DNA of 35,524 nucleotides from Eubacterium sp. (lineage in GTDB: Bacteria; Bacillota; Clostridia; Lachnospirales; Lachnospiraceae). The stretch spans positions 1 to 35,524 of the forward strand of contig JAAVZE010000075.1 in assembly GCA_022791495.1 (NCBI GenBank), given 5' to 3'. Below are positions 392-29,016 of this stretch, one piece after another (within the stretch, counting starts at the first letter, position 1; every line of letters begins with the position of its first letter). The position numbers and the translations under genes were made by a program. Under the pieces are notes generated by a model. It was not told the origin of the DNA and ran no database searches. It saw nothing but the letters and a program-made list of their open reading frames with translations.

Positions 392-492
392 GTAATTACT
401 TTGGTTTATTAAATTATTTTGCATAGAAAAAAATCATGGATTATAGTATAATAGCATTGGTGTTATTTACACATTTTAAGGGGGGAATATAT

Positions 493-1344
493 ATGAATCC
501 GATGATCAAGTATAGAGGTGGAAAATCGAAAGAGATAGTACATTTCATAAATAATATTCCAAAAAAATATTCGAGATATATAGAACCTTTTTTTGGTGGG
601 GGTGCATTATATTTTTATCTTCAGCCGGAAGAAGCAATCATAAATGATATTAATTGCAGATTATATAATTTTTACATAGAAATGAAAGAGAAGTACCCAG
701 AGGCAAGAAAACAATTGGATAAATTGCAAAAAGAGTATGAGGGAAATCAAAAAACTTATGAAGAGTTAAAAGTAGGAAATCCCAATAAACGTGTTGAAAA
801 CAAAAATGAAGCATTGTATTATTTGATGCGAGATGCATTTAATCATAAGATAAATACGGAATATCTTGAGTCTGTTGTATACTTTTTTATAAATAAAACA
901 GCATATTCAGGAATGATAAGATATAATGCAAACGGCGAATATAATGTTCCATTTGGAAGATATAAGAATTTTAATACTAAACTTATAACAAATGAACATT
1001 TTAAGCTTTTACAGAGGACAGAGATTTATAATTATGATTATTCAAAAATCTTTGATATGGCAAGAGATGATGATTTTATTTTCTTAGATCCTCCATATGA
1101 TTGTGTTTTTAGTGACTACGGAAATGAAAGTTATAAAAAAGGATTTGGGGAAGAAGAGCATAGAAGATTAGCAAATGATTTTAGAAATCTTTCTTGTAAA
1201 ACTTTATTAGTAATTGGAAAAACTCCTCTGACGGAAGAATTATATGGTAAATATATTGTTGAAGAATACGATAAATCTTATGCTGTCAATATAAGAAATA
1301 GATTTAAGGCAGATGCAAAACATATTATAGTGACAAATTATTAG
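493..1344 (+). CDS. Dam-family DNA adenine methyltransferase (restriction system 1)
   Basis: Predicted N6-adenine DNA methyltransferase of the alpha (Dam/DpnM) class. Seen in the 283-residue protein: N-terminal KYRGGK (residues 6-11), SAM-binding motif I EPFFGGG (31-37) and catalytic motif IV DPPY (199-202). An upstream in-frame ATG at 436 exists, but the ATG at 493 is preceded by a strong AAGGGGGGA ribosome site and begins directly with the family N-terminus, so 493 is preferred. A TATAAT at 447-452 is a possible -10 box, which the 436 start would precede. The AlwI-family nuclease gene starts 14 bases downstream, so this is its protective methylase. Dam relatives usually act on GATC, which would cover both strands of an AlwI-type GGATC site; that specificity is inference. 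Base composition is much more AT-rich than rpsI, suggesting horizontal acquisition. Confidence 0.9.
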   Translation: MNPMIKYRGGKSKEIVHFINNIPKKYSRYIEPFFGGGALYFYLQPEEAIINDINCRLYNFYIEMKEKYPEARKQLDKLQKEYEGNQKTYEELKVGNPNKRVENKNEALYYLMRDAFNHKINTEYLESVVYFFINKTAYSGMIRYNANGEYNVPFGRYKNFNTKLITNEHFKLLQRTEIYNYDYSKIFDMARDDDFIFLDPPYDCVFSDYGNESYKKGFGEEEHRRLANDFRNLSCKTLLVIGKTPLTEELYGKYIVEEYDKSYAVNIRNRFKADAKHIIVTNY

Positions 1345-1358
1345 AATGGGGGAGTTAC

Positions 1359-10824: not shown

Positions 10825-12597
10825 ATGGAACAGAGACTGAATAAGATCATCCAAGATTCTGAATATAAGATAGAAACAACAAATCGAAAAAGTAATATTT
10901 TGGGAATTGTAAAATTAGTATTATTTGCAGCACTGGTTTTTACCGGCGTCAAGTTATGCTTCACTTCTAACTATTTGGGATGGGGCATTTTGGCGGCGGC
11001 ACAGCTGGTGCTGTTTGTCTTTACTCTGATATGGCACAACCGGGTTTTGGAAGGGATTCAGCAGATGAAGGGCATCTGCGGTATAGCGAGCAGGGACAGG
11101 AAACGGCTGCTGGGAGATTGGCAGGAGGGGGAAGACGATGGGGGAGATCTGGCAGGGGAAGAGCATCCTTATGCAAGAGATCTGGATATCATAGGGAAAC
11201 GCTCTCTGTTTCAATATATAAATTGTACCCACACCTTTCATGGGCGCAGGAAATTGGCGGAGGATCTTCTCTCACCGGAGTATTCGATAGAGGAGATTGA
11301 AAAAAGACAGCAGATAATCTATGAGATCGGCGGAGATTATGAAGGGGCGGCCCATATGGAATACGTCTTTTCTCAGATTGATACCGGAGAGGAGACAGCT
11401 GAGCTTTTGGAGCAGCTAAAGGATCAGAAGCCCTTTTCTGGCAGCAAATGGTTTTCTGTACTATTGAATGTCATGCGGGGACTGACGATAGCTGCCTGCG
11501 GTTATCTGGTGTGCTTTCGCACAAATGCGGGATTTGCCCTGCTGGGGGCTCTTCTTTTTATCCAATTCTGTTTGTGGAGACTGGGAGAATATAGAACCCG
11601 GCATTATCTGGAACAGCTGCGCAGAGCTTCACGGAAGATTATGCCCTATAATCTGGCAGTCAGGGAAGTGCTCTCCAGGGAATTCACTGCGGCGAGGGGA
11701 AAGGAACTGCAGGGGATACTGGCGGAAGCCCAAAAAGGAATGGATGAACTGGCGCGTATTTCCAGGAATGTGGGTTGGTGTTATAATCTGCTTTCGGACT
11801 TTCTGCTTAATGTGATTTTTTTATGGAATTACAAGAATGCGTTTGCTCTGCAGAACTGGAAAAAAGTTTATGGAGAAAAGGCGGAAGATTGGTTTGGAGC
11901 ACTGGGAGAGATGGAGTGTTATCTAAGTTTTGCCAATCTGCTACGTAGCTGCAGCCAGATGTGTGCGCCGGAAGTGACAAAAGAAAATAAAGGTTTTCGC
12001 GGGGTAAAACTGGGACATCCGCTGCTGTCCAATAAGGACCGGGTATGCAATGATTTTGAGATGGAGGATGGCATTGTGATCCTTTCCGGCTCTAATATGT
12101 CTGGGAAGAGCACGTTTATGCGCGCCGTGGGTATCAATATGGTTTTGGCCAGGGCGGGTAGCTGGGTGTGTGCGGAAGCTGTGAGCTGTGGCCGTCCCCG
12201 GATCATGACCTCTATGCGGATCGTGGACCGCACTACGGAGGGAATCTCTACATTTTATTCTGAACTGCTCCGGATCCGCCAGATCATCGATGCGGCGGGG
12301 GAAGATGAACCGGTATATTTTCTGATCGATGAGATCTTTCGAGGGACGAATTCCGTGGACCGAAGAAAGGGAGCCGAGGGCGTCATACAAAAGCTTTGCC
12401 AGCAGGGGTGCTGCGGTATAATTACGACCCATGACCTTGAGATCTGTGAAAAACAAAAGGGAACCGAGGGAATAAAAAATTACAGTTTCTGTGAAGAATA
12501 TCATGATGGTGAGATGTATTTTACCTATACGCTTCAGCAAGGGGTGGCCAAGACAACAAATGGAGAATTTTTACTAAAAAAGGTGGGAATTCTGTAG
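10825..12597 (+). CDS. MutS-like ATPase with N-terminal membrane segments
   Basis: The 590-residue protein keeps the MutS clamp/ATPase half (domains III-V) but no mismatch-recognition domain. The ATPase region has Walker A GSNMSGKST (residues 422-430), Walker B VYFLIDEIFRGTNS and the downstream TTHD switch. The N-terminal third carries two hydrophobic helices (about residues 30-70) and two more around 210-260, so it is likely membrane-attached. This architecture is known in MutS-related proteins of anaerobes, but their role is not established; a role in ordinary mismatch repair is unlikely. ATG 10825 with AGGGAGG upstream is preferred over the in-frame start at 10747, which nearly abuts the GH27 stop and lacks a ribosome site. 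Confidence 0.85.
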   Translation: MEQRLNKIIQDSEYKIETTNRKSNILGIVKLVLFAALVFTGVKLCFTSNYLGWGILAAAQLVLFVFTLIWHNRVLEGIQQMKGICGIASRDRKRLLGDWQEGEDDGGDLAGEEHPYARDLDIIGKRSLFQYINCTHTFHGRRKLAEDLLSPEYSIEEIEKRQQIIYEIGGDYEGAAHMEYVFSQIDTGEETAELLEQLKDQKPFSGSKWFSVLLNVMRGLTIAACGYLVCFRTNAGFALLGALLFIQFCLWRLGEYRTRHYLEQLRRASRKIMPYNLAVREVLSREFTAARGKELQGILAEAQKGMDELARISRNVGWCYNLLSDFLLNVIFLWNYKNAFALQNWKKVYGEKAEDWFGALGEMECYLSFANLLRSCSQMCAPEVTKENKGFRGVKLGHPLLSNKDRVCNDFEMEDGIVILSGSNMSGKSTFMRAVGINMVLARAGSWVCAEAVSCGRPRIMTSMRIVDRTTEGISTFYSELLRIRQIIDAAGEDEPVYFLIDEIFRGTNSVDRRKGAEGVIQKLCQQGCCGIITTHDLEICEKQKGTEGIKNYSFCEEYHDGEMYFTYTLQQGVAKTTNGEFLLKKVGIL

Positions 12598-16457: not shown

Positions 16458-17480
16458 ATGGCTAAAACCACTAAAATTAACAATAGACGGTATCTGGGAA
16501 ATAAATACCGCCTGCTTTCGTTCATCCAGAAAGTGGTGGAAGATGAGTGTGAAAATGTAAATACTGTTGTGGACATTTTTGCAGGAACAGGAGCGGTTGC
16601 ATCTGCATTTCAAGAGAAGCAGCTGACCACAAACGATATTTTGTACAGCAATTATATCTCCAATTATGCCTGGTTTTCTGCCGAGCCCTATCATAAAGAT
16701 CTATTGGAAAATATGATTGATGCCTATAATGATGTGCAGGGAAAGGAAGATAACTATATGTCCCAGAATTTTGCCAATACTTACTTTAGTCTGGAGGATT
16801 GTGCCAAAATAGGTTTTATAAGGGAAGATATAGAGGAGAAATACCAGCAGGGCAGAATTAATTTCAGGGAACGGGCGATTTTGATCACCTCCTTACTTTA
16901 TGCCATGGATAAAATAGCCAAGACCTGCGGGCATTATGACGCCTATCGGCGGGACGTTGAATTTGATGCACATCTTGAACTGGCTTTGCCGGATGTAAGT
17001 GAAGTGAATAATCCGTATAATCAGTGTTTTAATGTGGATTCAAATGATCTGGCCAGAGATATATCAGCAGATCTGGTTTACATAGACCCGCCTTATAATT
17101 CCAGGCAGTACTGTGATGCCTATCATTTGCTGGAAAATGTGGCGCGGTGGGAAAAACCAGAGGTATTTGGTGTTGCCAGGAAGATGGACCGGAGGCATTT
17201 AAAGAGCAGATATTGTACCAAAAGTGCGACGGAGGCATTTGAAGATCTGATTAGAAATCTTGACTGCCGCTATATTCTGCTTTCTTATAACAATATGGCA
17301 GCGAAGGGGAATGATCGCTCCAATGCGAAGATTTCAGATGATGATATTTATAGAATACTGAATAACAAAGGGGAAGTAAAAGTTTTTTCGGAAAATTATA
17401 AAGCTTTTACAACAGGTAAGTCAGACATTGCCGACAATCAGGAGCGGTTATTTCTTTGTACCTGTGATCAAGGGAAGTAG
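16458..17480 (+). CDS. DNA adenine methyltransferase, first of two (restriction system 2)
   Basis: A 340-residue N6-adenine methyltransferase. Seen: N-terminal RRYLGNKYRLL, SAM-binding motif I DIFAGTG (residues 39-45) and catalytic DPPYNSRQYCDAYHLLENVARW (DPPY at 210-213). This form, with the long DPPYNSRQYC extension, occurs in methylases paired with type IIS nucleases such as the FokI/MboII group. It differs clearly from the Dam-type protein next door, so the two probably modify different strands of one asymmetric site. ATG 16458 has an AAGAGGT ribosome site. The next gene starts about 14 bases after this stop. Confidence 0.88.
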   Translation: MAKTTKINNRRYLGNKYRLLSFIQKVVEDECENVNTVVDIFAGTGAVASAFQEKQLTTNDILYSNYISNYAWFSAEPYHKDLLENMIDAYNDVQGKEDNYMSQNFANTYFSLEDCAKIGFIREDIEEKYQQGRINFRERAILITSLLYAMDKIAKTCGHYDAYRRDVEFDAHLELALPDVSEVNNPYNQCFNVDSNDLARDISADLVYIDPPYNSRQYCDAYHLLENVARWEKPEVFGVARKMDRRHLKSRYCTKSATEAFEDLIRNLDCRYILLSYNNMAAKGNDRSNAKISDDDIYRILNNKGEVKVFSENYKAFTTGKSDIADNQERLFLCTCDQGK

Positions 17481-17494
17481 GAATGAGGGAAACT

Positions 17495-18403
17495 ATGATA
17501 CAGTCACCATTAAATTACACCGGGGGAAAGTACAGGCTTTTGCCTCAAATATTACCATTGTTTCCAGAGCAGATAGGAACTTTTGTAGATCTGTTTTGTG
17601 GAGGATGTAATGTTGGGATCAACGTAGCGGCAAGGGCACACATTTACAATGACAGCTGTACCCCGTTGATAAATCTGTATTCTGTTATGCAGAGGCTTGA
17701 CAGCCGGGAATTTATAAACCGGCTTGAAAATGTCATACAGAACTATGGCTTGTCCGACGTAAAGACAAATGGATATAAATTTTATGGCTGCAACAGCAGC
17801 GACGGGTTGAGCGCCTATAACCGGGAACCTTATATGAATCTGCGTCAGGATGTCAACCATGCAGAGGTTCAGGATGATGACTATTACATAAAATTATACA
17901 CACTGATCATTTATGCCTTTAATAATCAGATCCGGTTTAACCGGAAGGGAGATTTCAATCTGCCGCCGGGAAAGAGAGACTTTAATCAGAACATGTATGA
18001 TAAGTTATCTGTTTTTCTCAATCTGCTCCATACACAGAAAGCGGTATTTACCAATCTGAATTTTAAAGATATGGATCTGGACCGCCTTAAATCTGGGGAT
18101 TTTGTTTACGTAGATCCTCCCTATCTTATTACCTGTGCTGCCTATAATGAGAAGAGGGGATGGACAGAACAGGACGAATACGATCTGTTGAATTTGCTGG
18201 ATACTCTATCCCGGCGGAACATTCGCTTTGGATTGTCAAACGTCATTGAATCCAAAGGGAGAAGAAACGATATATTGGAAAAATGGGTAAAAGAACGGCC
18301 GGATTACAGACAGATTGATCTTGATTATACATATCATAACGCAAACTATCAGAGGAAGAATAGAAAATCCGTGACACGAGAGGTTTTAATTGTAAACTAT
18401 TAG
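17495..18403 (+). CDS. Dam-family DNA adenine methyltransferase, second of two (restriction system 2)
   Basis: A 302-residue Dam/DpnM-class enzyme. Seen: LNYTGGKYRLLPQIL at the N-terminus (GGK at 10-12), motif I VDLFCGGCNVG (from Asp32) and catalytic DPPY (207-210), followed by RRNIRFGLSNV and a C-terminal YHNANYQRKNRKSVTREVLIVNY tail typical of Dam proteins. An ATG at 17483 is also in frame, but it has almost no spacing from its putative ribosome site, whereas GAGGGA fits 17495. The restriction gene begins 10 bases after the stop. Confidence 0.9.
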   Translation: MIQSPLNYTGGKYRLLPQILPLFPEQIGTFVDLFCGGCNVGINVAARAHIYNDSCTPLINLYSVMQRLDSREFINRLENVIQNYGLSDVKTNGYKFYGCNSSDGLSAYNREPYMNLRQDVNHAEVQDDDYYIKLYTLIIYAFNNQIRFNRKGDFNLPPGKRDFNQNMYDKLSVFLNLLHTQKAVFTNLNFKDMDLDRLKSGDFVYVDPPYLITCAAYNEKRGWTEQDEYDLLNLLDTLSRRNIRFGLSNVIESKGRRNDILEKWVKERPDYRQIDLDYTYHNANYQRKNRKSVTREVLIVNY

Positions 18404-18413
18404 GAGGAACCTG

Positions 18414-20558
18414 GTGAGAATCAAAGAAGGACAGATTTTTAATCTGATGGACACTAATGGCCGAAGGAACGATGTGATACATGCTCTTCAGGGATATTTA
18501 ACAATCCTTGAAGAGATACAAAACAATAAAAAAATGCGATGGGCTTCCATACCAGACAGTTTCGCTCAGTACGAATTTTATCGTCAGGCGATCGAACTTT
18601 CGCCAGATGTTTTTGTTAAACATGATCCTTACGATAAACTTATGGAACAAATAAAAAAGATTCCAGATTTTAATGAGGCTGTCGAGAATCTGGATCTGGG
18701 GTGGATCCAACGCAATTATATGTCCTATCCAGAACTCGTTGGCCAGTTCGACCTGGGCATTGAGGACCGGGCAAGACATTATACCAGCAACCTGGTTAAA
18801 TTAGGCTTTGCAGATGATGACCGGGATATTTCTCCTGTGGGAAAGCTGTTACTTGATCCGCAAAAAATAAAGAAAGACGAGCTTGAAAAGCTGCTTCCTG
18901 TCGATGGCGTTAATATTGTCTATTTACGCCAGCTGCTAAAGCTCCGGCTGTTTGATTCTGGCGGCGAGAGATTTTATGCTCCCTTCCATCTGGCGATATT
19001 TGTATTATTAAAAAGAACACGATTGTCAGAAAATGAGTTTTCGGAACTGGTTCAGGGGTTAAATCCCTATTCTGATTTTACCAACATAGAAGACTATGTG
19101 GTGAATTACCGAGAGGGCGATATTGTATCGGATATAGAAATTGATATACCTGAAGAATTAAAAACCCAGGAGAAAATATCGGAGACGGTATTCCGCAAAT
19201 TCTATAAGAACAGAAAAAGTAAAACGGCTGTGGATGTCTACTGGGAATTTTATGACCGGTTGTGGAAATATGTCCATGAAGAAAAAAACCCGGATAAATT
19301 GGATAGCGTATTGACTTTTTATGAAGACAACAGGGCTATGCTGAATAAGGCTTTTGGCAGGGGGAAGAACCTTTTTTCGCTAAAAACAGGAGACAGACCA
19401 TCTTTTACGGTTTTCGATGACCAGCATCCGGATATTCTTACGTTACATACCAATGAATACTTGTACATCCAGTTTTCATTGTCAAAGATTCTGGATCAGA
19501 TCAGAGAATATTCGGATACAACGAAGAGAATATTTAAGGCTTCTGGCATGATTCGTTTTTATAATGGCTTCGTCGAATTGGCATACCGGGAACTTTGTTC
19601 CTGTATTTTTGAAGTAGAGTTTATCCGAAGCCGTATTTCAGGAAATGTATCGGAAGAGACTCATTCCTGCTATCGCAGTCAAAGAGAGTATGAAGGTGGT
19701 TTATACAGCTATTATTGTGAAGTGGTCTCTTTATCGGAAATTTTAAGATATACAAAAAAGGAAATTACACAGGTTAAGGACCATATCCGGGAGGAATTTC
19801 CAGATACATCCATGGAGAAAATACCTTTCCTTCTTGCAGAAAAACGAAAGAAAGAATTCGCATTGTTTCTGGAGAGATCCTATCCAGCAGAAAAGGTCAA
19901 GGAGATCCTTCGGATGTTTGCAGACAGGTCCCATGACAGGCAGATCAAAGAGATGGTGAGCCAGGATGCCTCCGTACCGACAATCTATGAGTATATTGTG
20001 GGAATTGCCTGGTACTATTTCTCGGGAAAAAGGATTGATTTACTTGGAAGCTACAATCTGACTTTATCGGCGGATTTTGAACCCCTGGTCCATGCCGGAG
20101 GCGGGCAGGGGGACATCGTTATTTATGAAAAAGATAAGGTTGTAATGCTTGAGGCAACACTTATGAATGCAAATAGTCAGAAACGCGGGGAGTGGGAACC
20201 TGTTTTAAGACATTCCATTAATTTGAAAGTAGAGGAAGAGACGGCAAAGACAGGCAGGGTAGTCACATCATTTTTTATTGCGGACCGCTTTGACTATAAT
20301 ACAATTAATATCTGGAAAGCCATTGCGGCAGTTCCACTGCAGTCCACAGTGGAGAGAGATAAATTTACAGATAACGTAGTTATTATGCCAGTTCACAGTG
20401 AAGAATTATGTTCTTTGATGGATCAGCACAGGGAATATGATGCCATGATTTCCAGGGTTCACCAGCTGTTTGAAGTAGATAAAGTTAACTTTGATATCAA
20501 CTGGAGGGATAAGTTTATGGAAAAGGTAATAGATGACAGAGCAGGAGGATTGTGCTAA
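18414..20558 (+). CDS. AlwI-family type IIS restriction endonuclease (restriction system 2)
   Basis: A 714-residue protein with a GTG start behind a strong TAGGAGGA site. Overall it diverges from the nuclease at 1359-3038, but the catalytic core aligns. Here GDIVIYEKDKVVMLEATL leads to a WEPVLRHSINL segment, against ADIICDYGDFGLAVEVT and GEPVSRHL there. Asp567, Glu580 and Glu593 repeat the same 13-residue spacing. The N-terminal half (RARHYTSNLVKLGFADDDRDISPVGKLLL) looks like the winged-helix recognition part of the family. Two methylases upstream imply an asymmetric recognition sequence needing a separate enzyme per strand. Codon use is closer to the host genes than in restriction system 1. 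Confidence 0.78.
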   Translation: MRIKEGQIFNLMDTNGRRNDVIHALQGYLTILEEIQNNKKMRWASIPDSFAQYEFYRQAIELSPDVFVKHDPYDKLMEQIKKIPDFNEAVENLDLGWIQRNYMSYPELVGQFDLGIEDRARHYTSNLVKLGFADDDRDISPVGKLLLDPQKIKKDELEKLLPVDGVNIVYLRQLLKLRLFDSGGERFYAPFHLAIFVLLKRTRLSENEFSELVQGLNPYSDFTNIEDYVVNYREGDIVSDIEIDIPEELKTQEKISETVFRKFYKNRKSKTAVDVYWEFYDRLWKYVHEEKNPDKLDSVLTFYEDNRAMLNKAFGRGKNLFSLKTGDRPSFTVFDDQHPDILTLHTNEYLYIQFSLSKILDQIREYSDTTKRIFKASGMIRFYNGFVELAYRELCSCIFEVEFIRSRISGNVSEETHSCYRSQREYEGGLYSYYCEVVSLSEILRYTKKEITQVKDHIREEFPDTSMEKIPFLLAEKRKKEFALFLERSYPAEKVKEILRMFADRSHDRQIKEMVSQDASVPTIYEYIVGIAWYYFSGKRIDLLGSYNLTLSADFEPLVHAGGGQGDIVIYEKDKVVMLEATLMNANSQKRGEWEPVLRHSINLKVEEETAKTGRVVTSFFIADRFDYNTINIWKAIAAVPLQSTVERDKFTDNVVIMPVHSEELCSLMDQHREYDAMISRVHQLFEVDKVNFDINWRDKFMEKVIDDRAGGLC

Positions 20559-20623: not shown

Positions 20624-21487
20624 ATGGCAGAAAAGAGTAAAAAGTATGTATATGAATGGGAAGATTATGAAGATGGCAAAAAGAATGCAAAGACTATGGG
20701 AGAAGAGATTCTGGCAGATCCGCAGCTGCCGGAACTCGAAGAGATCATCATTGGCTGCTGGGGGGAATCCTGGGAAAACAGTGCCCAGGCCATCATCGAC
20801 AGCATTGTAGCAAATAAGGAAAAATTTGCAGGGATCAAAAGTCTGTTTGTGGGGGATATGGATTATGAAGAGTGTGAGGTGTCCTGGATCGAGCAGGCAG
20901 ATTATTCCGCGCTCTGGGAGGCGCTTCCGGGATTGGAAATATTGACGGTCAAGGGAGGGACGAATCTGAGTCTTGGAAAGATCTGTCATCCGAATTTAAA
21001 GCGTCTGGAGATCATCTGCGGTGGTCTTCCCAAAGAGGTGCTTGCCAGCATCGCAGAGGCAGAACTGCCGGAACTGGAAGAGCTGGCGCTGTATCTTGGC
21101 GTGGATGACTATGGCTTTGACGGCGGTGTGGAGGACGTAAAAAACATGCTGGAGAAGTCAGATTTTCCCAAACTTCGTTCTCTTGGCATTATGGACAGCG
21201 AGATTCAGGATGAGGTGGCAGAGGTGGTCTGTGACTGCAAATATATGAAACAGATTGACAAACTGGATCTTTCCAAGGGTACAATGACGGATCAGGGTGG
21301 TGAGGTTCTGTTAAAGGCACTGCCTGATTATGATAATATCAAAGAAGTAAATCTGGAATATCATTACATGTCAGAGGCTATGATGAAGAAGCTGGAAGGG
21401 CTGTCAGCGAAGGTGGACGTAAGTGATCCACAGGAGGACGATGAGTACGACGGAGAGATCTACCGCTATCCGATGCTCACCGAATAA
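20624..21487 (+). CDS. STM4015-family leucine-rich-repeat-like protein
   Basis: First gene of a five-gene operon matching the conserved but functionally unassigned STM4015-4011 set named after Salmonella loci. The 287-residue protein is soluble and acidic. Its leucine-rich, repeat-like body shows recurring patterns such as LPELEELALYLG, FPKLRSLGIMD and IDKLDLSKGTMTDQG, and the acidic tail ends DGEIYRYPMLTE. No catalytic motif is visible, so it is more likely a binding partner or a substrate of the four enzymes downstream. ATG 20624, with AATGGAGG before it, is preferred over an upstream in-frame start at 20573. The next gene starts 14 bases after the stop. Confidence 0.75.
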   Translation: MAEKSKKYVYEWEDYEDGKKNAKTMGEEILADPQLPELEEIIIGCWGESWENSAQAIIDSIVANKEKFAGIKSLFVGDMDYEECEVSWIEQADYSALWEALPGLEILTVKGGTNLSLGKICHPNLKRLEIICGGLPKEVLASIAEAELPELEELALYLGVDDYGFDGGVEDVKNMLEKSDFPKLRSLGIMDSEIQDEVAEVVCDCKYMKQIDKLDLSKGTMTDQGGEVLLKALPDYDNIKEVNLEYHYMSEAMMKKLEGLSAKVDVSDPQEDDEYDGEIYRYPMLTE

Positions 21488-21501
21488 TTCTGGTGGAATC
21501 T

Positions 21502-22503
21502 ATGGGAATCGTATTGATCGGAGAACCGGGGACAAGGCGGACGGAATATTTTCTCCGCGCCGCTGGGGAATTACATAAGCCGGTCTGGTTTGTGGACTGG
21601 CAGACAGCAGGGGGGATGGAGTTTCACGGGGATGTGGTGAAGCTGGATCCTCCCTCCTATAAGAGCAGCGATCTCTTTCAGATGAAGGATCATCTGGCGT
21701 CATTTCAAAAGCTGATGAAACAGTCAGAGGGGGCAGGGGGGATCTTTTTGAACCCTCCCTCTGAAATTCTCCGTCTATTAGACAAAAGACAATGTAAAGA
21801 AATACTGATGGAAAACCAGGTTCCGGTCACGGAGATGCTGGAGGACAAAATTGAAAATGCAGAACAGCTTATGGAGTCCATGAAACATCGAAGGATTTAT
21901 TCCGTATTTATTAAACCTGTTTATAGTTCCGGCGCCGCGGGAGTTACCGCATTTCGTCTGGCTCCGGGGCAGGGTAGGATGATGGCGTATACATCCTGTA
22001 TTCTTCAAGGAGAGGAACTGGTGAATACGAAGAAGCTTCGGCGCATGGAGAATGCTCAGGAGATCTGCCGCCTGTTGGATGCGGTGCTGTCACTGGGAGC
22101 AGTGGTGGAGCGCTGGCACCCTAAAGCTTCTTTTGGAGGGAAAAGCTATGACCTCCGGGTGGTCTGGCAGTTCGGGAGATGTGAATTTGTGGTGGCAAGG
22201 TGTTCTTCTGGTCCGGTGACAAACCTTCATCTGAACAATTCTCCTCTGGCATTTTCAGATCTGGGGCTTTCAGAAAAAGTGATCTGTGAGATCAATGCCT
22301 TATGTGAAAAAGCCATGTCATGTTTTCCAGAACTGCGGATGGCTGGCATCGATGTACTTCTGGAACAGGGATCATTGAAACCAAAGATCATCGAGATGAA
22401 TGGCCAGGGGGATCTGATGTATCAGGATATTTTTTATGAGAACCGGATCTACAGGCGGCAGGTGGAATGGATGGCACAAAGGGCAGCTGACGGAGACGGG
22501 TGA
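21502..22503 (+). CDS. STM4014-family ATP-grasp protein
   Basis: A 333-residue probable ATP-grasp ligase, a class that activates a carboxylate with ATP and joins it to an amine or other nucleophile. Seen: an ATP-binding loop FIKPVYSSGAAGV (Lys138), a LRVVWQFGRCEFVVAR strand pair, and the metal-binding EMNGQGDL (Glu298, Asn300) near the C-terminus, the order found in RimK-like enzymes. The ATG at 21502 with TGGTGGA before it is used; a GTG at 21493 would add three residues. The end overlaps the next start by four bases. The substrate is unknown; within the operon, the acidic LRR-like protein or a small metabolite are both possible. Confidence 0.75.
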   Translation: MGIVLIGEPGTRRTEYFLRAAGELHKPVWFVDWQTAGGMEFHGDVVKLDPPSYKSSDLFQMKDHLASFQKLMKQSEGAGGIFLNPPSEILRLLDKRQCKEILMENQVPVTEMLEDKIENAEQLMESMKHRRIYSVFIKPVYSSGAAGVTAFRLAPGQGRMMAYTSCILQGEELVNTKKLRRMENAQEICRLLDAVLSLGAVVERWHPKASFGGKSYDLRVVWQFGRCEFVVARCSSGPVTNLHLNNSPLAFSDLGLSEKVICEINALCEKAMSCFPELRMAGIDVLLEQGSLKPKIIEMNGQGDLMYQDIFYENRIYRRQVEWMAQRAADGDG

Positions 22504-23306
22504 GTCGAGTTATGAATATGAATGAAATCGTGGGAGCCTACAATATTTTATTTGTCTGTATTGACTCCCTTCGTTATGATGTGGCGGAGGAAGAACAGGA
22601 CAGGGGAGGGACGCCGGTTCTGAACCGGTATGGCAGATGGCGCCGATGCGAGGCGCCGGGAAATTTTACCTATCCCTCCCATCAAGCCATGTTTGCCGGA
22701 TTTCTTCCAATGGATGCCGGAATTAAAAATATGAAACAGAGGGAAAAACTGTTTTTTTCCGAGGATATCGGGATGGGGAGAAAGGCGCCGGAGGGGGCGT
22801 TTTGTTTTCGTGGAGCCACCTTTGTGGAGGGACTGGAAAAGGAAGGTTATGAGACTTTCTGCATCGGGGGCCTGAGTTTTTTTGACCAGAGGACAGACAT
22901 TGGAAAGGTGATGCCTTCCTATTTTATGCACAGTTTCTGGAATCCATCCTTTGGACCGAAGGTCAGGGAATCTACAAAAAACCAGATCGATCTTGCTGTA
23001 AAAAAGATAAGCGGGCTGCCTGTGGAACAGTTAATAATGATGTATATTAATATTTCTGCGATTCATTATCCCAATTATTTTTATGTCGAAGGCACGAACA
23101 AAGACAGTGTAGAAAGCCACGGAGCGGCGCTACGTTATGTGGATGCACAGTTGGAACGGCTGTTTCACGCTTTCTATAAAAAAGGAGATACTTTTGTCAT
23201 CTGCTGTTCGGATCACGGCACCTGTTATGGTGAGGACGGATATCTGTATCATGGTTTTAACCATCCCATCGTCAACACGGTACCATATAAACATTTTACC
23301 TTGTGA
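22500..23306 (+). CDS. STM4013/SEN3800-family hydrolase, alkaline phosphatase/sulfatase fold
   Basis: A 268-residue metal-dependent hydrolase or phosphotransferase of the alkaline-phosphatase superfamily. Seen: the N-terminal metal site ILFVCIDSLRYD (Asp22 from the GTG start), FTYPSHQAMFAG with Thr57 in the nucleophile position (no Cys/Ser-x-P-x-R sulfatase signature, so formylglycine use is not expected), and a C-terminal SDHGTCYGEDGYLYHG metal site. The GTG at 22500 overlaps the upstream stop as GTGA; ATGs at 22512 and 22518 are alternatives that begin nearer the conserved part. It lacks a signal peptide and membrane anchor, unlike many relatives, so it acts in the cytoplasm. Confidence 0.78.
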   Translation: MSRVMNMNEIVGAYNILFVCIDSLRYDVAEEEQDRGGTPVLNRYGRWRRCEAPGNFTYPSHQAMFAGFLPMDAGIKNMKQREKLFFSEDIGMGRKAPEGAFCFRGATFVEGLEKEGYETFCIGGLSFFDQRTDIGKVMPSYFMHSFWNPSFGPKVRESTKNQIDLAVKKISGLPVEQLIMMYINISAIHYPNYFYVEGTNKDSVESHGAALRYVDAQLERLFHAFYKKGDTFVICCSDHGTCYGEDGYLYHGFNHPIVNTVPYKHFTL

Positions 23307-23334
23307 TACCAACACTATTTATAGGAGAAAATAC

Positions 23335-24606
23335 ATGGATAATCCATATGTTCAATATATGTACAGTTATCCCCACAAGACAGCCTATGGCCCGCTGTCG
23401 GGGATCCGTCTGGAAGATTACATACAAAGGCTGTCAGGAGGACAGAACAGCCTTTATTTTCATATTCCTTTTTGTCAGAGTAAATGTGGCTACTGCAACC
23501 TGTTCTCCGTGACGGGGCAGTCTGATGAATTTATGTCAGCCTATGTGGATGCCATGGAGAGACAGGCGGAGCAGCTGAGAACCATTCTTCCGAAGGGAGC
23601 AGATTTTTCGGATCTGACACTGGGGGGCGGGACGCCGCTGCTGCTATCAGAGAAACAGCTTGAAAGGGTTTTTTCCATAGCCAGGGACCGGATGGGATTT
23701 GAGGGAAAATCGGTCATCGTGGAGACATCTCCGGCTCAGACGACGGAAGAAAAGGCGGCACTTTTGAAGGAAAATGGCGTCACCCGGGTAAGTATGGGAG
23801 TGCAGAGCTTTCATGATGAAGAATTGCGGACGCTGAACCGGAGACACCGGGTCTGGCAGGTGCACCGGGCAGCCCGTATCCTGAAAAAGAGTAAATTCCC
23901 CTGTATCAATCTGGATCTTATCTATGGTATACCGGGACAGACGGTGGAAAGCCTGCTGGATTCCGCAGGGCAGGCGGCAGCATATGAGCCAGAGGAAATG
24001 TTTGTGTATCCACTGTATATAAAAAATGGTACATTTCTGGCGCAGAAGATGAGTATCCATCCTGAGACCGTCTACGGGATGTATCAGGAGCTGAGAGACT
24101 TTCTGAAAGAGAGAGGATATAAGCAGCTTTCCATGCGCCGGTTTGTGAAAGATCCTGATCCTCTGGATCAGGGAAGCTGCGGATTCGGTAACACCATATC
24201 CGTCGGCTGTGGCGGACGTAGTTATATCGGGGAGCTGCATTTTTGTACTCCTTTTGCCCTGGGGCAGAGAAGCTGTATGGATATTTTACAGAAGTATATG
24301 CAGAAGAAAGATTTTCTGGAAGTCACCCATGGTTACCTTCTATCAGAAGAAGAGATGAGAAGACGCTATGTCATAAAAAATATTTTGTTTTGCTGCGGCA
24401 TCGATAAAGAAGAGTACCGGTGCCGGTTTGACAGCGAGCCGCAAAAGGATTATCCGCTGCTGACAGAGTGGATCCGGAACGGCTTGGCGGTGGCGGATTC
24501 TGCGAAGATCTGCCTTACAGAGAAAGGAATCTCTCTGTCCGATTTTCTTGGACCAAAACTGATGTCAGAGGCGATCAGGGAAAAAATGAGAAAATGGCGC
24601 TATTGA
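23335..24606 (+). CDS. STM4012-family radical SAM protein (HemW/HemN-like)
   Basis: A 423-residue radical SAM enzyme. The 4Fe-4S motif is Cys47-x3-Cys51-x2-Cys54 within FHIPFCQSKCGYCNLF, followed by LGGGTPLLL and SMGVQSFHDEEL, all features of the HemN/HemW class, whose members bind a second SAM or haem. It belongs to the conserved five-gene set, so a role in porphyrin metabolism is less likely than modification of a pathway-specific substrate. ATG 23335 with AGGAGA upstream is chosen; the frame upstream of it only shadows the hydrolase gene. Confidence 0.83.
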   Translation: MDNPYVQYMYSYPHKTAYGPLSGIRLEDYIQRLSGGQNSLYFHIPFCQSKCGYCNLFSVTGQSDEFMSAYVDAMERQAEQLRTILPKGADFSDLTLGGGTPLLLSEKQLERVFSIARDRMGFEGKSVIVETSPAQTTEEKAALLKENGVTRVSMGVQSFHDEELRTLNRRHRVWQVHRAARILKKSKFPCINLDLIYGIPGQTVESLLDSAGQAAAYEPEEMFVYPLYIKNGTFLAQKMSIHPETVYGMYQELRDFLKERGYKQLSMRRFVKDPDPLDQGSCGFGNTISVGCGGRSYIGELHFCTPFALGQRSCMDILQKYMQKKDFLEVTHGYLLSEEEMRRRYVIKNILFCCGIDKEEYRCRFDSEPQKDYPLLTEWIRNGLAVADSAKICLTEKGISLSDFLGPKLMSEAIREKMRKWRY

Positions 24607-24631
24607 GCGAAGGAATGGAGGAGGGTGTGTA

Positions 24632-25501
24632 ATGGTCCGTCAGATATATTACCGGGGAAGTTTGAGATTTTGTAACTACTCCTGCAGCTACTGTCCATTT
24701 TCCAAAGAAAAGGAGAGCCGGCGGCAGCTGGAGGAGGATGAGAGGGAGCTTTTCCGATTTGTGAAGCGGATCGTAGAGAAAAAGTTTCAAGGTGCTGTTC
24801 AGATCGTCCCCTACGGAGAGGCGCTGATCCATCGGTATTACTGGAGGGCACTGGCAAAACTCAGCCGGCTGCCACAGATCGAAGTAGTGGGCGCCCAGAG
24901 TAATTTTAGTTTTGACGTGAAAGAGATGTTGGGTGAATTTGAAAAAGCCGGGGGAGAGAAGAAGAAGCTCCAGCTATGGGGAACTTTCCATCCGGAGATG
25001 GTATCAGAGCAGGATTTTTTGGGGGTATGCCGTCAGTTAAAAGAAGCCGGAATCTTGTTCTGTGCCGGTGCTGTTGGGGTACCAGAAAACTTATCCTGGC
25101 TGCAGAGGATAAGAAAAGAACTAGATCCGGCGGTATATTTCTGGATCAATAAGATGGATGGGCTGGGCAGGAAGTACACCCGGGAGGAGATCCAGGCATT
25201 TTCTGCCCTGGATCCGTATTTTTCACTGGAACTGCGCCATTACAGGGCAGATGCCGCCCATTGTGGGAGTGCTCTGTTTTGTGATTCAAAGGGTGATGTA
25301 TACGCCTGTAACCGCTGCCGCCACAGATCAGGTAATTTATATTCGGAGGATCCAGGAGAAACATTATGGCATATCTCAGAAAATGACCTCATATGTGACA
25401 GAAAGGAATGTGACTGTTATATCTCATACTGCAACCGGGATGATTTGGAAGAAATGATATCTTTCGGTCCATATCCGGCATTTCGGATCCCTTTATATTG
25501 A
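24632..25501 (+). CDS. STM4011-family radical SAM protein
   Basis: Last gene of the STM operon: 289 residues with the radical SAM cluster motif near the N-terminus (Cys14-x3-Cys18-x2-Cys21 in FCNYSCSYCPF). The C-terminal third is cysteine-rich (CGSALFCDSKGDVYACNRC ... CDRKECDCYISYC), resembling the SPASM-type auxiliary Fe-S cluster region of peptide-modifying radical SAM enzymes. The start has GGAGGGTG before the ATG and lies 25 bases after the previous stop. No terminator is obvious after it; the next gene has its own promoter. Confidence 0.8.
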   Translation: MVRQIYYRGSLRFCNYSCSYCPFSKEKESRRQLEEDERELFRFVKRIVEKKFQGAVQIVPYGEALIHRYYWRALAKLSRLPQIEVVGAQSNFSFDVKEMLGEFEKAGGEKKKLQLWGTFHPEMVSEQDFLGVCRQLKEAGILFCAGAVGVPENLSWLQRIRKELDPAVYFWINKMDGLGRKYTREEIQAFSALDPYFSLELRHYRADAAHCGSALFCDSKGDVYACNRCRHRSGNLYSEDPGETLWHISENDLICDRKECDCYISYCNRDDLEEMISFGPYPAFRIPLY

Positions 25502-25531
25502 GAAAATATAAAAGTGGCTCAAAAAAAGAAC

Positions 25532-25560
25532 TTGTGTTCGGAGAGGGTTTATGTTAAACT
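25532..25560 (+). promoter_or_regulatory. Promoter of the BcgI-like restriction locus
   Basis: TTGTGT (25532-25537), 17-base spacer, TAAACT (25555-25560) with a TG two positions upstream (25552-25553) giving an extended -10. It lies 30 bases before the ATG. Confidence 0.55.
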
Positions 25561-25589
25561 AATTATAAACTGATAATGGAGGGATTGAA

Positions 25590-27809
25590 ATGGCTTCAGA
25601 AGAAAAAACAAAAGGGATTGTATCAGGGAAACTAGCTTCATTGCCTGACTATTCTTCAAAACAGAATATAGAAAAGAATGGAATAATTTGGTTTAAAGAG
25701 GATAGTTTTAAAGGAACCTCCTATCATTGGTTGAAAGATGTGTTTGCTAAAGCTTCTAAGAAGCAAACATTGTCCAAAAGAGGAACGCCTGATTTTATAA
25801 TCGCAAAGGAGAAATCCGATGTCATTGTTATAGTTGAATGCAAGGCTCAGATTAATGGAGCCAGTAGTAAACACTCTCTGTTTGATAATGTAGAAGAATA
25901 TAAAATATATGGTTATGGGACTCCGGCAGAAACGGAACAATATGCGATAAATGGAGCATTGTATTATGCTACGTTTTTAAACCAGGAATATGATGTTGTG
26001 GCAGTCGGGGTATCTGGCCAGAGTGAGTCTGAGTTAAGAATTACATCATTTGTACTTCCTAAAGGTGGAGAATTATCAGATCTAGAGGTGCTGGAAGATG
26101 GCGGGTACGATGATGGGCTGGTTTCTATTGATCAGTATGTAAAGGATATTAATATTGTATTGAACAGATATTCTTCTACAGAGGAAGAAATTAGAAAGGA
26201 GCTCAGAAAATACACATTATCATGTGCAAATTTTTTACGTGCAAATGGAATTGAAGATAATTCTAAAGCTGGGTTTGTGTCAGCTATTGTACTTGGGTTG
26301 ACAAATAAGAAATCAAGGTTATACAGGGAAACCCAATCAGCCATTGATAGAAAGATAAATTCCAAAGCAAAAACAGTATTTTCTGATTTAATTGGCAAAG
26401 ATGCTGTAAAGATGCTGAAAGCCTCTTTGTATGGTGACGGTAAGGATGAATATGAAGATGATTATATCGAAGGTGTCTGGGATATTGATGGGATTCCCAA
26501 AGGGAAAAGGAAGTCGCTAAAAAGATTTTATGATGTTTTGTTAGGTAAAGATGAACTGACAAAAGCACCAAAAGGGCAGAATAGTTATTTTAATGACGGT
26601 GAAACGGTGTTATCCTGTTGTATCTATTCATTGTTTGAAAATTTAATAGAAATACTTGAACATTACAAAGGCATTGATATCATGGGAGAATTTTATACGA
26701 CTTTTTTGCGTTTTACGAAGGGAAATGCAAAGGAAAAAGGGATTGTTTTGACGCCAAAACATATTACAGAGTTATTTTGTGATATTGCTGAATATTATAG
26801 TGGACAGCCATTTTCAGAGAAAACAAAGATTCTGGATACTTGCTGCGGTACAGGAGCATTTCTTATAGCCTCACTTGGGCGGATCAAGGATAACATTCGA
26901 TGTCAGTTTATAAGTGAAAAGCAAAAGGAAGAAAAATATCAATACGCAAGAACAAATAGCTTGATCGGAGTAGAAAGAGATTCCTCAATGTATGCCCTTG
27001 CATACGCGAATATGCGGTTTCATGGTGATGGAAAGGCAAATTTATTTAATTGTTCCTCTCTGGTATCGGATTCCTATAATCCAATGGATGACAGCGGAAT
27101 GACATATTTGCAGGATGGAAAAAAAGTTCCTTTATCTGAAGCTTTGAGTACATTTGGGGATATCGATATAGCAATGATCAATCCACCATATTCAATAGGA
27201 TCAAACGCAAATAAAGTAATCAGACCGTATCCGGATTGCGCACCGGAAGAGGTTGTAATACAAAAAGGGCAGGATGAACTGGATTTTATAGCCTCCATGC
27301 TGCATTACATAAAAGCCGGGGGAATAGGGATTGCCATTGTTCCTATGTCCTGTGCGGGAAATAGTGGACGGGGGCTGCGTAAAAACATATTAAAGTTCCA
27401 TACCTTATTAGCCTGTATGACAATGCCTGCGAATCTGTTTTTTGACAGTCATGTAGGGACAGCGACCTGTATTATGGTATTTAAGGCACATATTCCTCAC
27501 GATGAAGGAAAGTCGGTTTTTTTTGCCAGATGGCAGGATGACGGATTTAAGGTGATTCCACACAATGGCAGAAAAGATTCCGGTGCCTGGGCAAATATCC
27601 GCGTACAATGGATGGAGCAAATAGATGGAGTGGCAGATCCCAATGATTTTGTATATATCAGGCACAAGATCAGGGTTGGTGATGAAGCGTTAGCAGAAGC
27701 GTATATAAAGACAGATTATAGTAAATTATGTGATGCGGACTTTGAACGGAATTTAAAGAAATACGCATTGTATAAGTATATGGGGGAACAAGGAATGCTG
27801 GAGGAATAA
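25590..27809 (+). CDS. BcgI-like fused restriction endonuclease / N6-adenine methylase subunit
   Basis: A 739-residue protein joining a nuclease to a type I-style methylase. The N-terminal ~150 residues carry a PD-(D/E)xK site: TPDFII with Asp68, then IVIVECKAQ with Glu83 and Lys85. The middle and C-terminal part is an N-6 adenine methyltransferase of HsdM type: GEFYTTFLRF (motif X), LDTCCGTGAFLIAS with Asp416-Thr-Cys-Cys-Gly (motif I) and INPPYSIG (Asn531-Tyr534, motif IV). With a separate specificity gene four bases downstream this matches the BcgI A/B arrangement of type IIB/IIG enzymes, which cut and methylate in one complex. ATG 25590 has GGAGGG before it. The gene is AT-rich relative to the STM operon. 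Confidence 0.85.
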   Translation: MASEEKTKGIVSGKLASLPDYSSKQNIEKNGIIWFKEDSFKGTSYHWLKDVFAKASKKQTLSKRGTPDFIIAKEKSDVIVIVECKAQINGASSKHSLFDNVEEYKIYGYGTPAETEQYAINGALYYATFLNQEYDVVAVGVSGQSESELRITSFVLPKGGELSDLEVLEDGGYDDGLVSIDQYVKDINIVLNRYSSTEEEIRKELRKYTLSCANFLRANGIEDNSKAGFVSAIVLGLTNKKSRLYRETQSAIDRKINSKAKTVFSDLIGKDAVKMLKASLYGDGKDEYEDDYIEGVWDIDGIPKGKRKSLKRFYDVLLGKDELTKAPKGQNSYFNDGETVLSCCIYSLFENLIEILEHYKGIDIMGEFYTTFLRFTKGNAKEKGIVLTPKHITELFCDIAEYYSGQPFSEKTKILDTCCGTGAFLIASLGRIKDNIRCQFISEKQKEEKYQYARTNSLIGVERDSSMYALAYANMRFHGDGKANLFNCSSLVSDSYNPMDDSGMTYLQDGKKVPLSEALSTFGDIDIAMINPPYSIGSNANKVIRPYPDCAPEEVVIQKGQDELDFIASMLHYIKAGGIGIAIVPMSCAGNSGRGLRKNILKFHTLLACMTMPANLFFDSHVGTATCIMVFKAHIPHDEGKSVFFARWQDDGFKVIPHNGRKDSGAWANIRVQWMEQIDGVADPNDFVYIRHKIRVGDEALAEAYIKTDYSKLCDADFERNLKKYALYKYMGEQGMLEE

Positions 27810-27813
27810 ACTT

Positions 27814-28938
27814 ATGGATACTGAGGGCTGGAAAGAGTTTTACCTGGGAAAAATATTTGAAATTAAAAAGGGAAAACGATTGACAAAAGAGAATATGACT
27901 CCTGGAGATTTGAATTTTCTGGGGGCAATACAGGGTATGAATGGTGTAAGGGAAAAAATTAATGCAGAACCACTTTTTCAGGGGAATTGCATATCGGTAA
28001 ATTATAATGGGTGTGGGGTGGGAGAAGCATTTTATCAGAAAGAACCATTTTGGGCTTCAGATGATGTAAATGTTTTGTTTCTGCGCGGGCATAAAATGAA
28101 TGAAACATTAGCTATGTTTTTCATTACTATTATTCGGAATGAAAAATACCGGTTTAGTTATGGACGCAAATGGAATAAGGAACAAATGGAAAAAACCCTT
28201 ATTAGTCTTCCAGCCTGTATGAATAAAGGACAATACGTGATAGACGGGCATAAATTTTATTCGAGTTCCGGGTATATTCCTGATTTTCTATTTATGGAGA
28301 ATTACATATCGTCCTTAAACTCGGATGTTAATGGGATACCAGACTATTTTCTGGAAGAAGGGTATGACAAAGCTTGCTGGTACATGGATCACATTGATCA
28401 AAAGGAATTTGAAAGACAGTATGCAGGAGCCGTAAGTTCCGATATAATTTCCTTAAATGATCGGGATTGGAGGTATTTTTGTCTTGGAGATAAAAAGTAT
28501 TTTGATGTTAGAAGAGGGGCATCTGTTTATATAAAGAATATGTCACCAGGAGACATACCTTATGTGAGTACATCGAAGGAGAATAACGGAGTTACGGCTT
28601 ATGTAGCAGAAAGCAACAGAAAAGGCAATTTAATTACATTGGCATATGATGGAAGTATAGGGGCATGTTTTTATCAAGAGGAAGAATTTTTTGCGAGTGA
28701 AAAGATCGTGACGTTAGAGACTACCCAGTACCCGATGAATAAATATATTGCATTTTTTCTGATTCAAATTTTAAAATTGGAAGCGGAGATGTTTTCATAT
28801 GGCGGAAGAAAATGGACGGTTGAAAAGCAATTAAAAGGAACTATGATTAAGCTGCCAGTAAGGAATGCAGATTATGAACCTGATTATATGTTTATGGAAA
28901 ATTACATAAAATCACGGGCATTTAGCTGTAATATCTAG
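27814..28938 (+). CDS. Restriction-modification specificity (S) subunit, BcgI B-like
   Basis: A 374-residue DNA-recognition subunit with two half-repeats, each opening with W-x-x-F/L-x-L-G and a GK/RG-x-S/T helix start (WKEFYLGKIFEIKKGKRL and WRYFCLGDKKYFDVRRGASV). Each half ends near a FMENYI helix (about residues 155-165 and 360-370). Each half should contact one part of a bipartite target sequence. It pairs with the fused nuclease-methylase subunit just upstream; GGAGGA before that stop serves as its ribosome site. The target sequence cannot be read from the protein. Confidence 0.85.
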   Translation: MDTEGWKEFYLGKIFEIKKGKRLTKENMTPGDLNFLGAIQGMNGVREKINAEPLFQGNCISVNYNGCGVGEAFYQKEPFWASDDVNVLFLRGHKMNETLAMFFITIIRNEKYRFSYGRKWNKEQMEKTLISLPACMNKGQYVIDGHKFYSSSGYIPDFLFMENYISSLNSDVNGIPDYFLEEGYDKACWYMDHIDQKEFERQYAGAVSSDIISLNDRDWRYFCLGDKKYFDVRRGASVYIKNMSPGDIPYVSTSKENNGVTAYVAESNRKGNLITLAYDGSIGACFYQEEEFFASEKIVTLETTQYPMNKYIAFFLIQILKLEAEMFSYGGRKWTVEKQLKGTMIKLPVRNADYEPDYMFMENYIKSRAFSCNI

Positions 28939-28952
28939 TACAACGAATATGA

Positions 28953-29003
28953 AGTAACTGACATATTCACTTGTCTAATTGCTGCGTGAATATGTCAGTT
29001 ACT
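28953..29003. repeat. Perfect 18-base inverted repeat between convergent genes
   Basis: Left arm 28953-28970 (AGTAACTGACATATTCAC) and right arm 28986-29003 are perfect reverse complements around a 15-base loop. It lies between the S-subunit stop (28938) and the deacetylase stop (29017, minus strand). It probably folds as a bidirectional terminator, but there is no T run after either arm, so a mobile-element end or protein site is also possible. Confidence 0.75.
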
Positions 29004-29016
29004 AATATCCGCTGTA

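Follow-up and report, generated by a model that had tools for sequence, protein, structure and literature searches.

In amino-group carrier protein (AmCP) systems, LysX attaches its substrate by the amino group to the C-terminal glutamate of LysW, the bond being formed with the side-chain carboxylate (PMC10433800). The enzymes that act on AmCPs make use of electrostatics, and both the globular domain and the C-terminal extension of the carrier serve recognition (PMC9303977). In the pearlin systems (TglA/TglB and TmoA/TmoB), an amino acid is added to the C terminus of a carrier and then modified, with a radical S-adenosylmethionine (SAM) enzyme in one pathway (PMC9303977), and RimK adds glutamate to the C terminus of S6 (PMC4741518). 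Here we analyzed a stretch of 35,524 nucleotides from Eubacterium sp. (assembly GCA_022791495.1, contig JAAVZE010000075.1; the whole stretch is termed the window below) that contains an operon of five genes of the STM4015, STM4014, STM4013, STM4012, and STM4011 families (collectively STM401x). The first gene encodes an acidic leucine-rich-repeat (LRR) protein, the last residue of which is nearly always glutamate. We consider it somewhat probable, by analogy with the AmCPs, that STM4015 is a carrier loaded at this glutamate by the ATP-grasp enzyme STM4014, and that the tethered group is modified by the other enzymes.

STM4015 resembles the AmCPs of the LysW/LysX, ArgW/ArgX, and Vzb22 systems in being acidic and globular with an extension that ends in glutamate, and in its pairing with a dedicated ATP-grasp enzyme; in both cases, further enzymes are expected to act on the tethered group. 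It is this AmCP pattern, an acidic globular protein with a Glu-ending extension next to a RimK-like ATP-grasp enzyme, that led us to propose loading of the glutamate by STM4014. However, AmCPs are small zinc proteins with an EDWGE motif, whereas STM4015 is an LRR protein of about 285 amino acids, and its length in the window (287 amino acids), its LRR matches, and a full-length match to Protein Data Bank (PDB) entry 2ra8 do not agree with the zinc fold of the AmCPs. Because of its other fold and the lack of EDWGE, we do not class STM4015 as a LysW relative; we propose that it may work like LysW without being one. Unlike in the AmCP systems, the other STM401x enzymes are radical SAM and phosphatase-like enzymes, and no releasing hydrolase was identified among the neighbors. 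The pearlin systems employ a tRNA-dependent ligase, a carrier peptide, and a protease, whereas the STM401x set has an ATP-grasp enzyme and a folded repeat protein; NCBIfam and Pfam searches found no peptide aminoacyl-tRNA ligase among the five operon proteins. As in the RimK-S6 pair, an ATP-grasp enzyme is proposed to act on a protein C terminus, but STM4014 scores far below the RimK family cut-off, and its acceptor would be a dedicated operon partner with further enzymes.

The NCBIfam models for STM4011 to STM4015 bear names without function beyond "radical SAM" and "hydrolase." We found no functional account of these families in the literature searched, which lay mostly outside subscription journals; STM401x locus tags appeared there in only two papers, in what seem to be tables. 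The terminal-glutamate rule and the carrier role of STM4015 are newly proposed here. The STM401x genes range from Salmonella to Streptomyces, Deinococcus, and cyanobacteria, and the rule would join five families that lack an assigned role in a single pathway for which the substrate, the site, and the first enzyme can be named. If the proposal is true, a repeat-protein scaffold would join the few systems that build molecules amide-bound to a protein, and the operon would point to new radical SAM chemistry.

The five-gene operon

A profile search placed each of the five codirectional frames between positions 20624 and 25501 above the cut-off of its own NCBIfam family. The features are as follows:

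20624..21487, + strand, STM4015-family leucine-rich-repeat protein, 287 amino acids (NF038076, 334 bits; cut-off, 275)
21461..21484, + strand, C-terminal tail YRYPMLTE of STM4015, a conserved tail with the proposed attachment site Glu287 (GAA, 21482-21484)
21493..22503, + strand, STM4014-family ATP-grasp ligase, 336 amino acids from GTG (NF038074, 315 bits; cut-off, 175)
22500..23306, + strand, STM4013/SEN3800-family hydrolase of the alkaline phosphatase superfamily (NF038075, 369 bits; cut-off, 250; Pfam Sulfatase)
23335..24606, + strand, STM4012-family HemN/HemW-like radical SAM enzyme (NF006067, 511 bits; cut-off, 380)
24632..25501, + strand, STM4011-family radical SAM enzyme with a C-terminal cysteine set (NF038073, 296 bits; cut-off, 200)

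The ATG of STM4015 at 20624 is preceded by GGAGG, and STM4014 has an alternative ATG start at 21502. The intergenic gaps are, in order, 5 (or 14), -4, 28, and 25 bases. An earlier note on this DNA had described five codirectional frames at these places, in agreement with the frame list, and a gap of 14 bases between STM4015 and STM4014, which holds if STM4014 starts at the ATG. It had also called for profile searches of each protein, and these returned the STM4015-4014-4013-4012-4011 families for all five. Between 21 and 25 kb, 1-kb bins of the operon have a GC content of 0.475 to 0.490, and that of the flanking restriction genes is mostly 0.36 to 0.42. The genome of the window, which is 83% complete, contains a single STM4015 match. 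Fold assignments given below derive from profile matches and PDB sequence matches.

Conservation of the terminal glutamate

The C termini of STM4015 were compared in 159 closed frames from 139 loci, comprising frames of at least 100 amino acids and at least 90 bits; shorter or lower-scoring frames and those open at the end of a locus were left out. These frames gave 120 distinct 60-residue tails, and glutamate was the last residue in 119 of them. Three frames of one protein of G1047 that scored below 90 bits, and hence lie outside this count, also ended in glutamate, as did all 94 STM4015 frames of a first survey (91 without three duplicates) and 71/71 rows of the STM4015 alignment A3. The duplicates are loci L085, L089, and L095, which represent the same contigs as L036, L032, and L031; they were also dropped from the set of 109 neighborhood loci and from the counts of enzyme last residues, flank clusters, conserved positions, and charges. 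The other operon proteins served as a control in loci L031 to L123: glutamate was last in 91/91 STM4015 proteins, and the commonest last residue accounted for 16% of STM4014, 55% of STM4013, 33% of STM4012, and 14% of STM4011 proteins. None of the 159 STM4015 frames extended past the terminal glutamate, in contrast to the fusions seen elsewhere in the system, namely, STM4014-4013 and STM4013-4012 single frames and STM4011 joined to a haloacid dehalogenase (HAD) domain.

The residues before the glutamate vary (LTE, ITE, VSE, VAE, LGE, YTE, and LYE), and tails differ among lineages, with ..PMLTE in many Clostridia, ..PMITE in Bacteroides, ..NAMYTE in Salmonella, ..RYVAVSE and similar tails in actinomycetes, ..RYVALGE in Deinococcus, and ..RYCSVAE in cyanobacteria. 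The mean information of alignment A3 was 3.27 bits in the last 8 columns, 2.19 bits in the preceding acidic linker, and 2.74 bits in the repeat core. The terminal glutamate was encoded 67 times by GAA and 24 times by GAG, and all three stop codons followed it, so that selection acts on the protein. The final glutamate codon as an artefact of a ribosome-binding site is ruled out by the mixed codons and the three stops, and also by Glu-ending copies without an adjacent STM4014 gene (L135, L140, and L141). A pattern made from the tail matched 100 of the 11,121 closed frames of at least 60 amino acids in the 109 loci; all 100 were STM4015 proteins, and a general C-terminal tag on other proteins was rejected on this ground.

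Repeat body, acidity, and copy number of STM4015

Pfam agrees with the family assignments of the operon, although its LRR model does not reach the cut-off with STM4015, and the family profile matches PDB entry 2ra8 over positions 3 to 292 of 292 as well as other LRR chains. Entry 2ra8 (Bacteroides fragilis Q64V53, "uncharacterized protein") is a solved STM4015 homologue. Its matched part ends in ..YPMITE, and the eight residues of the chain beyond the match are taken to be a tag. The match starts at residue 73; the preceding part is probably a WGR domain, which is absent in the STM4015 protein of the window. The literature search found no paper that names 2ra8. Pfam detected an N-terminal WGR domain on STM4015 of Bacteroides relatives. 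A WGR-type N terminus was observed at loci L108, L113, L098, and L141, by Pfam in the first three and from a similar-looking sequence in L141. The STM4015 gene of L141 (genome G528) is solitary and lies apart from the other four genes. The invariant residues of the repeat core include S87, W88, and Y163, and GDMxYEECEVSWIxQ is one of the best-conserved stretches of the family, W88 ranking first and C84 fourth by relative entropy.

The STM4015 protein of the window has an isoelectric point (pI) of 4.26 and a net charge of -36. The family median is a pI of 4.35 with -11 charges per 100 residues (n = 90), and the median pI is 8.10 for STM4014 (n = 82) and 8.64 for STM4011 (n = 78, HAD part included where fused). 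Two to four STM4015 copies were present at 11/109 loci. Doubling of STM4014, STM4013, or STM4011 was seen at none of these loci, and that of STM4012 at one (L094), where the match is weak and partial. In plasmid records, tblastn located 24 STM4015 places in 14 records versus 13 STM4011 places in 13. Streptomyces cadmiisoli carries an extra STM4015 gene about 24 kb beyond the operon, the product of which likewise ends in glutamate.

The ATP-grasp enzyme STM4014

ATP-grasp features comprise two lysines, an aspartate, and an ExN motif (PMC4431377). Among 93 aligned STM4014 rows, K98 was found in 92 and K141, D287, and N303 in 91 each, the rest being gaps; position 301 was glutamate in 81 and aspartate in 10 rows, again with gaps in the rest. 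We read K98, K141, D287, and E301/N303 as the putative catalytic ATP-grasp positions. At an E value of 0.001, the 46 STM4014 members examined also matched the models of MptN (39/46), RimK (30/46), CofF (12/46), LysX (7/46), and a D-Ala-D-Ala ligase (7/46). Judged by these sequence matches, the nearest families include MptN, RimK, CofF, and LysX, makers of glutamyl-type amide bonds; for MptN and CofF, we rely on the model names for their action on glutamyl groups. The protein of the window scored 15.9 bits against the RimK model TIGR00768, below the cut-off of 143.4. PDB profile matches, all weak, were to D-Ala-D-Ala ligase, RimK, cyanophycin synthase, pyruvate carboxylase, and inositol phosphate kinase. 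Models of graspetide maturases (MvdC/MvdD type) each matched one of the 46 members, at E values of about 3e-4 to 6e-4, and the available text of a graspetide survey (PMC8939145) mentions neither STM4014 nor leucine-rich repeats or carriers.

STM4013, STM4012, STM4011, and a frequent sixth component

Nine STM4013 residues (D22, D27, T57, H61, H189, D215, D238, H239, and H251) were kept in 100/100 proteins. In line with the features of the superfamily, we take these to be likely metal-site or active-site residues, with T57 as the predicted nucleophile; a weak match places T57 opposite the threonine of a nucleotide pyrophosphatase/phosphodiesterase. Sulfatases that are matured by the anaerobic sulfatase maturase have cysteine or serine at the nucleophile position. 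Because of the threonine at this position in all 100 proteins, we rejected the reading of STM4013 as a sulfatase matured by STM4011; together with the phosphodiesterase alignment, the threonine makes a formylglycine-requiring sulfatase unlikely.

In STM4012, C47, C51, and C54 were present in 93/94 rows, the remaining row having a gap, and the best PDB profile matches were HemN (1olt) and the methyltransferase NocN (9p2u). The protein of the window scored 510.9 bits with the STM4012 model, 165 with HemW (cut-off, 205.4), and 144.8 with HemN (cut-off, 324.95). With these scores below the HemW and HemN cut-offs, we rejected its reading as a heme or coproporphyrinogen enzyme. The CxxxCxxC motif of STM4011 (C14, C18, and C21) was conserved in 90/90 rows, and C211, C226, C255, C260, and C262 in 88/90, the other two being gaps. 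SPASM-type radical SAM enzymes combine CxxxCxxC with a set of C-terminal cysteines for auxiliary clusters. The STM4011 protein of the window had low scores with the anaerobic sulfatase maturase (17.9 bits) and spiroSPASM (15.2 bits) models, and the SPASM-type models rSAM_AF0577 and PapB each matched 2/20 rows of alignment A6. This alignment holds 19 true STM4011 proteins and one STM4012 protein (L077) and was not used for the conservation counts.

A Cof-type HAD hydrolase, which the earlier note did not mention, is a frequent sixth component. In Salmonella it has its own gene after STM4011; many Clostridia, and also Bacteroides, encode it as the C-terminal part of STM4011. A HAD motif was recognizable in 40 of 76 closed STM4011 frames, 15 others had an unclassified extension of similar length, and 21 were short. 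The operon of the window has neither a HAD gene nor a HAD domain. Two full-length HAD relatives are encoded elsewhere in its genome, and such genes also occur in 14/14 control genomes.

Distribution and cohesion of the system

Complete five-gene sets were observed in six phyla (Bacillota, Bacteroidota, Pseudomonadota, Actinomycetota, Deinococcota, and Cyanobacteriota, the last placed from genomes drawn from the phylum of Scytonematopsis). A scan of a species-genome collection with the STM4013 alignment retrieved at least 585 relatives. Since the best 80 of these at least 585 were taken and are mostly Clostridia, the locus sample leans toward Clostridia and close relatives; plasmid records were added to it. 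The system is sparse in whole-genome samples. Among genomes of the same family, STM4015 exceeded its cut-off in 7/299, and among those of the same phylum STM4013 did so in 8/398, the genome of the window included in both cases. In the phyla of three other genomes, STM4015 was above its cut-off in 1/349 (Zoogloeaceae, the centre genome only), 1/296 (Niastella, the centre only, with G1136 lying 1.4 bits below the cut-off), and 4/194 (Scytonematopsis, centre included).

All five genes were present at 87 of the 109 neighborhood loci, some of which share a genome (e.g., L135/L173 and L043/L141). By our reading, most of the remaining 22 reflect the end of a contig or locus, a deliberately retrieved orphan or split copy, or a system divided over the genome. 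Genome G528, for example, has all five genes, but unlinked, with STM4013-4012-4011, STM4014, and STM4015 on three separate contigs, and in the genome of L052 STM4014 is on another contig. Genome-wide searches followed up some of the partial loci. STM4011 was found in 10/10 of the genomes searched, of which two (L051 and L080) already had it at the locus; the eight in which it was missing or fragmentary at the locus all carry it. STM4015 was found in 9/10 genomes, four of which (L115 to L118) already had it at the locus. STM4014 was found in 7/8 genomes at an E value of 0.001, six of these over the cut-off and two already known (G000 and G697), and, in another search, in 3/4 genomes, two already known (L071 and L083).

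The neighborhood survey that the earlier note had called for thus showed that the genes co-occur elsewhere. Its statement that the gene order is kept applies to most relatives, but the order is rearranged in L105, L098, and L168, where the set is still together, and the system is split in G528. Its view that the occurrence in a Firmicute widens the range of the system did not stand, as most of the best 80 relatives come from Clostridia. Single frames combine STM4014 and STM4013 in L071 and STM4013 and STM4012 in L052 and L053. STM4014 is split over two frames at L062:6742-7898, which may reflect a sequencing error or a broken gene.

Proposed mechanism and alternative explanations

In the mechanism that we propose, the LRR body of STM4015 would be an acidic docking platform for the enzymes, and a short linker would present the conserved tail with its last residue, glutamate. 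STM4014 would activate a carboxylate of this glutamate with ATP and form an amide bond to an amino acid or another amine. The tethered group might then be remodeled by the HemN-like STM4012, likely through alkylation or other radical carbon chemistry, and by the possibly SPASM-like STM4011, while STM4013, together with the Cof-type HAD phosphatase where present, would remove phosphate or phosphodiester groups. The product would be either released or retained on STM4015 as a built-in group. STM4015 is probably the substrate or carrier; we infer the covalent bond, the attached group, the order of steps, and the release. The earlier note had suggested peptide or protein modification, with a non-enzymatic partner among the components. 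This suggestion fits the results, and STM4015 itself carries the expected acceptor, a near-invariant C-terminal glutamate. In a more specific version, which we consider doubtful, the LRR carrier would hold a building block, amide-linked to its terminal glutamate, during two radical SAM steps and dephosphorylation, and, with no releasing peptidase, the finished group would be kept as a permanent protein-borne cofactor. Tandem STM4015 copies could represent several differently addressed cofactor proteins per cell.

Several observations weigh against the carrier proposal. The EDWGE motif of LysW is absent from STM4015 tails, and Glu287, although invariant, comes only 31st among the 287 positions in relative entropy, lower than many residues of the core, because glutamate is a common residue. 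A cyanobacterial STM4015 paralogue (L167:11054-12310), located between STM4012 and STM4011, has neither the tail nor the glutamate; this locus has three other, tailed copies that end in glutamate. The matches of STM4014 to known ligases are weak (24 bits to MptN for the protein of the window; cut-off, 350), and the charge contrast is smaller in the window, where STM4014 (pI 6.14) and STM4011 (pI 6.61) are near neutral. Action of the radical SAM enzymes on a tethered group is suggested only by the operon, and the invariant C terminus of STM4015 could be a docking or assembly motif instead of an attachment site. No releasing peptidase stood out beside the operon in the clustering and reading of loci L031 to L123. 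Two metagenome bins, which are incomplete, lack part of the set: a genome-wide search found neither STM4015 nor STM4014 in the genome of L121, which has STM4013, and STM4014 was not found in that of L104, which has three STM4015 copies.

It is also conceivable, although unlikely, that STM4014 merely tags STM4015 in the manner of RimK, adding one or several amino acids such as glutamate to the C terminus and thereby altering binding, and that the other enzymes act on a substrate recruited by the LRR body. The action of RimK on S6 and the match of the RimK model to 30/46 STM4014 members are in line with this idea; the invariant S87, W88, and Y163 of the core could bind another partner, and the additional genes found in Deinococcus, Methylobacterium, and Streptomyces (see below) could encode it. 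However, the set occurs together in six phyla and is also maintained in some genomes where it is unlinked, so that the enzymes are probably interdependent, and the clustering of flanking frames of L031 to L123 brought up no further candidate for a substrate gene. Quite unlikely, in our judgment, is a modification of the STM4015 body, in which the radical SAM enzymes would place cross-links or cofactors on conserved residues (e.g., C84 and W88) and the glutamate would be part of a recognition tail only. The high conservation around W88 and C84 speaks for it, and the conserved C-terminal cysteines of STM4011 recall peptide-modifying radical SAM enzymes; yet C84 falls outside the invariant and nearly invariant positions of A3, and the corresponding stretch of 2ra8 reads GDIDFEEQEISWI, without that cysteine.

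Repeat proteins are commonly scaffolds, and an acidic STM4015 would suit docking to STM4014 and STM4011, which are mostly basic. STM4015 might therefore be an unmodified docking or assembly scaffold; its glutamate would then occupy a pocket in one of the partner enzymes, and the pathway would act on a free small molecule. We regard this as improbable, since STM4015 copies multiply without the enzymes, a pattern that suits a substrate better than a stoichiometric scaffold, and since the neighboring ATP-grasp enzyme is close to ligases of glutamyl carboxylates. Although restriction genes adjoin the operon, a role in phage defence is scarcely credible: PADLOC gave no match for four of the five proteins and a partial match of 33.8 bits for STM4012, and the restriction genes are not conserved neighbors.

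Flanking restriction genes and other neighbors

On both sides the operon of the window is adjoined by genes detected by Pfam and PADLOC:

16458..20558, + strand, two D12-class adenine methyltransferases and an AlwI-like restriction endonuclease, upstream
25502..29015, + strand, N6-methylase and specificity-subunit genes, downstream; absent here in L044

The operon thus does lie between two restriction systems in the window, as the earlier note had stated, but this context does not serve as the clue that the note had seen in it. Flanks of about 8 to 10 kb (less at some short loci) were compared, and among 93 loci the upstream AlwI-type genes were beside the operon only in L044, and the downstream genes in none. 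Locus L044 is nearly identical to the window (96.8 to 99.3% DNA identity over three segments) and lacks the 3.5-kb methylase/specificity stretch that directly follows STM4011 of the window; the last STM4011 codons differ at the junction. The comparison of window positions 25501-29015 with L044 around 11002-11009 indicates that a restriction cassette was recently gained or lost. The flanking restriction systems look unrelated to the five-gene system and incidental to it.

Clustering of the flanking frames of loci L031 to L123 gave one group present in 15 loci, one in 13, and others in at most six. From their sequences, we read the 15-locus group as a putative ABC ATPase and the 13-locus group as a putative MATE transporter; in six loci the latter is encoded on the strand of the operon, at a distance of no more than about 350 bases. 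From this clustering, a conserved exporter or peptidase was rejected. We also opened six annotated operon loci, from three Deinococcus, one Methylobacterium, and two Streptomyces records (L137, L138, L173, L174, L176, and L177), and in all six the operon is flanked by a DUF6745 gene and a gene for a protein of about 100 amino acids, which lie on the opposite strand in five of these loci. Three of these small proteins were scanned and had no Pfam match. The two genes are a possible extra component of the system. In the window, a second set of an AlwI-like endonuclease and a D12 methyltransferase is located at positions 436-3038, in addition to that at 16458-20558, and a GmrSD-type gene at 3563-5746.

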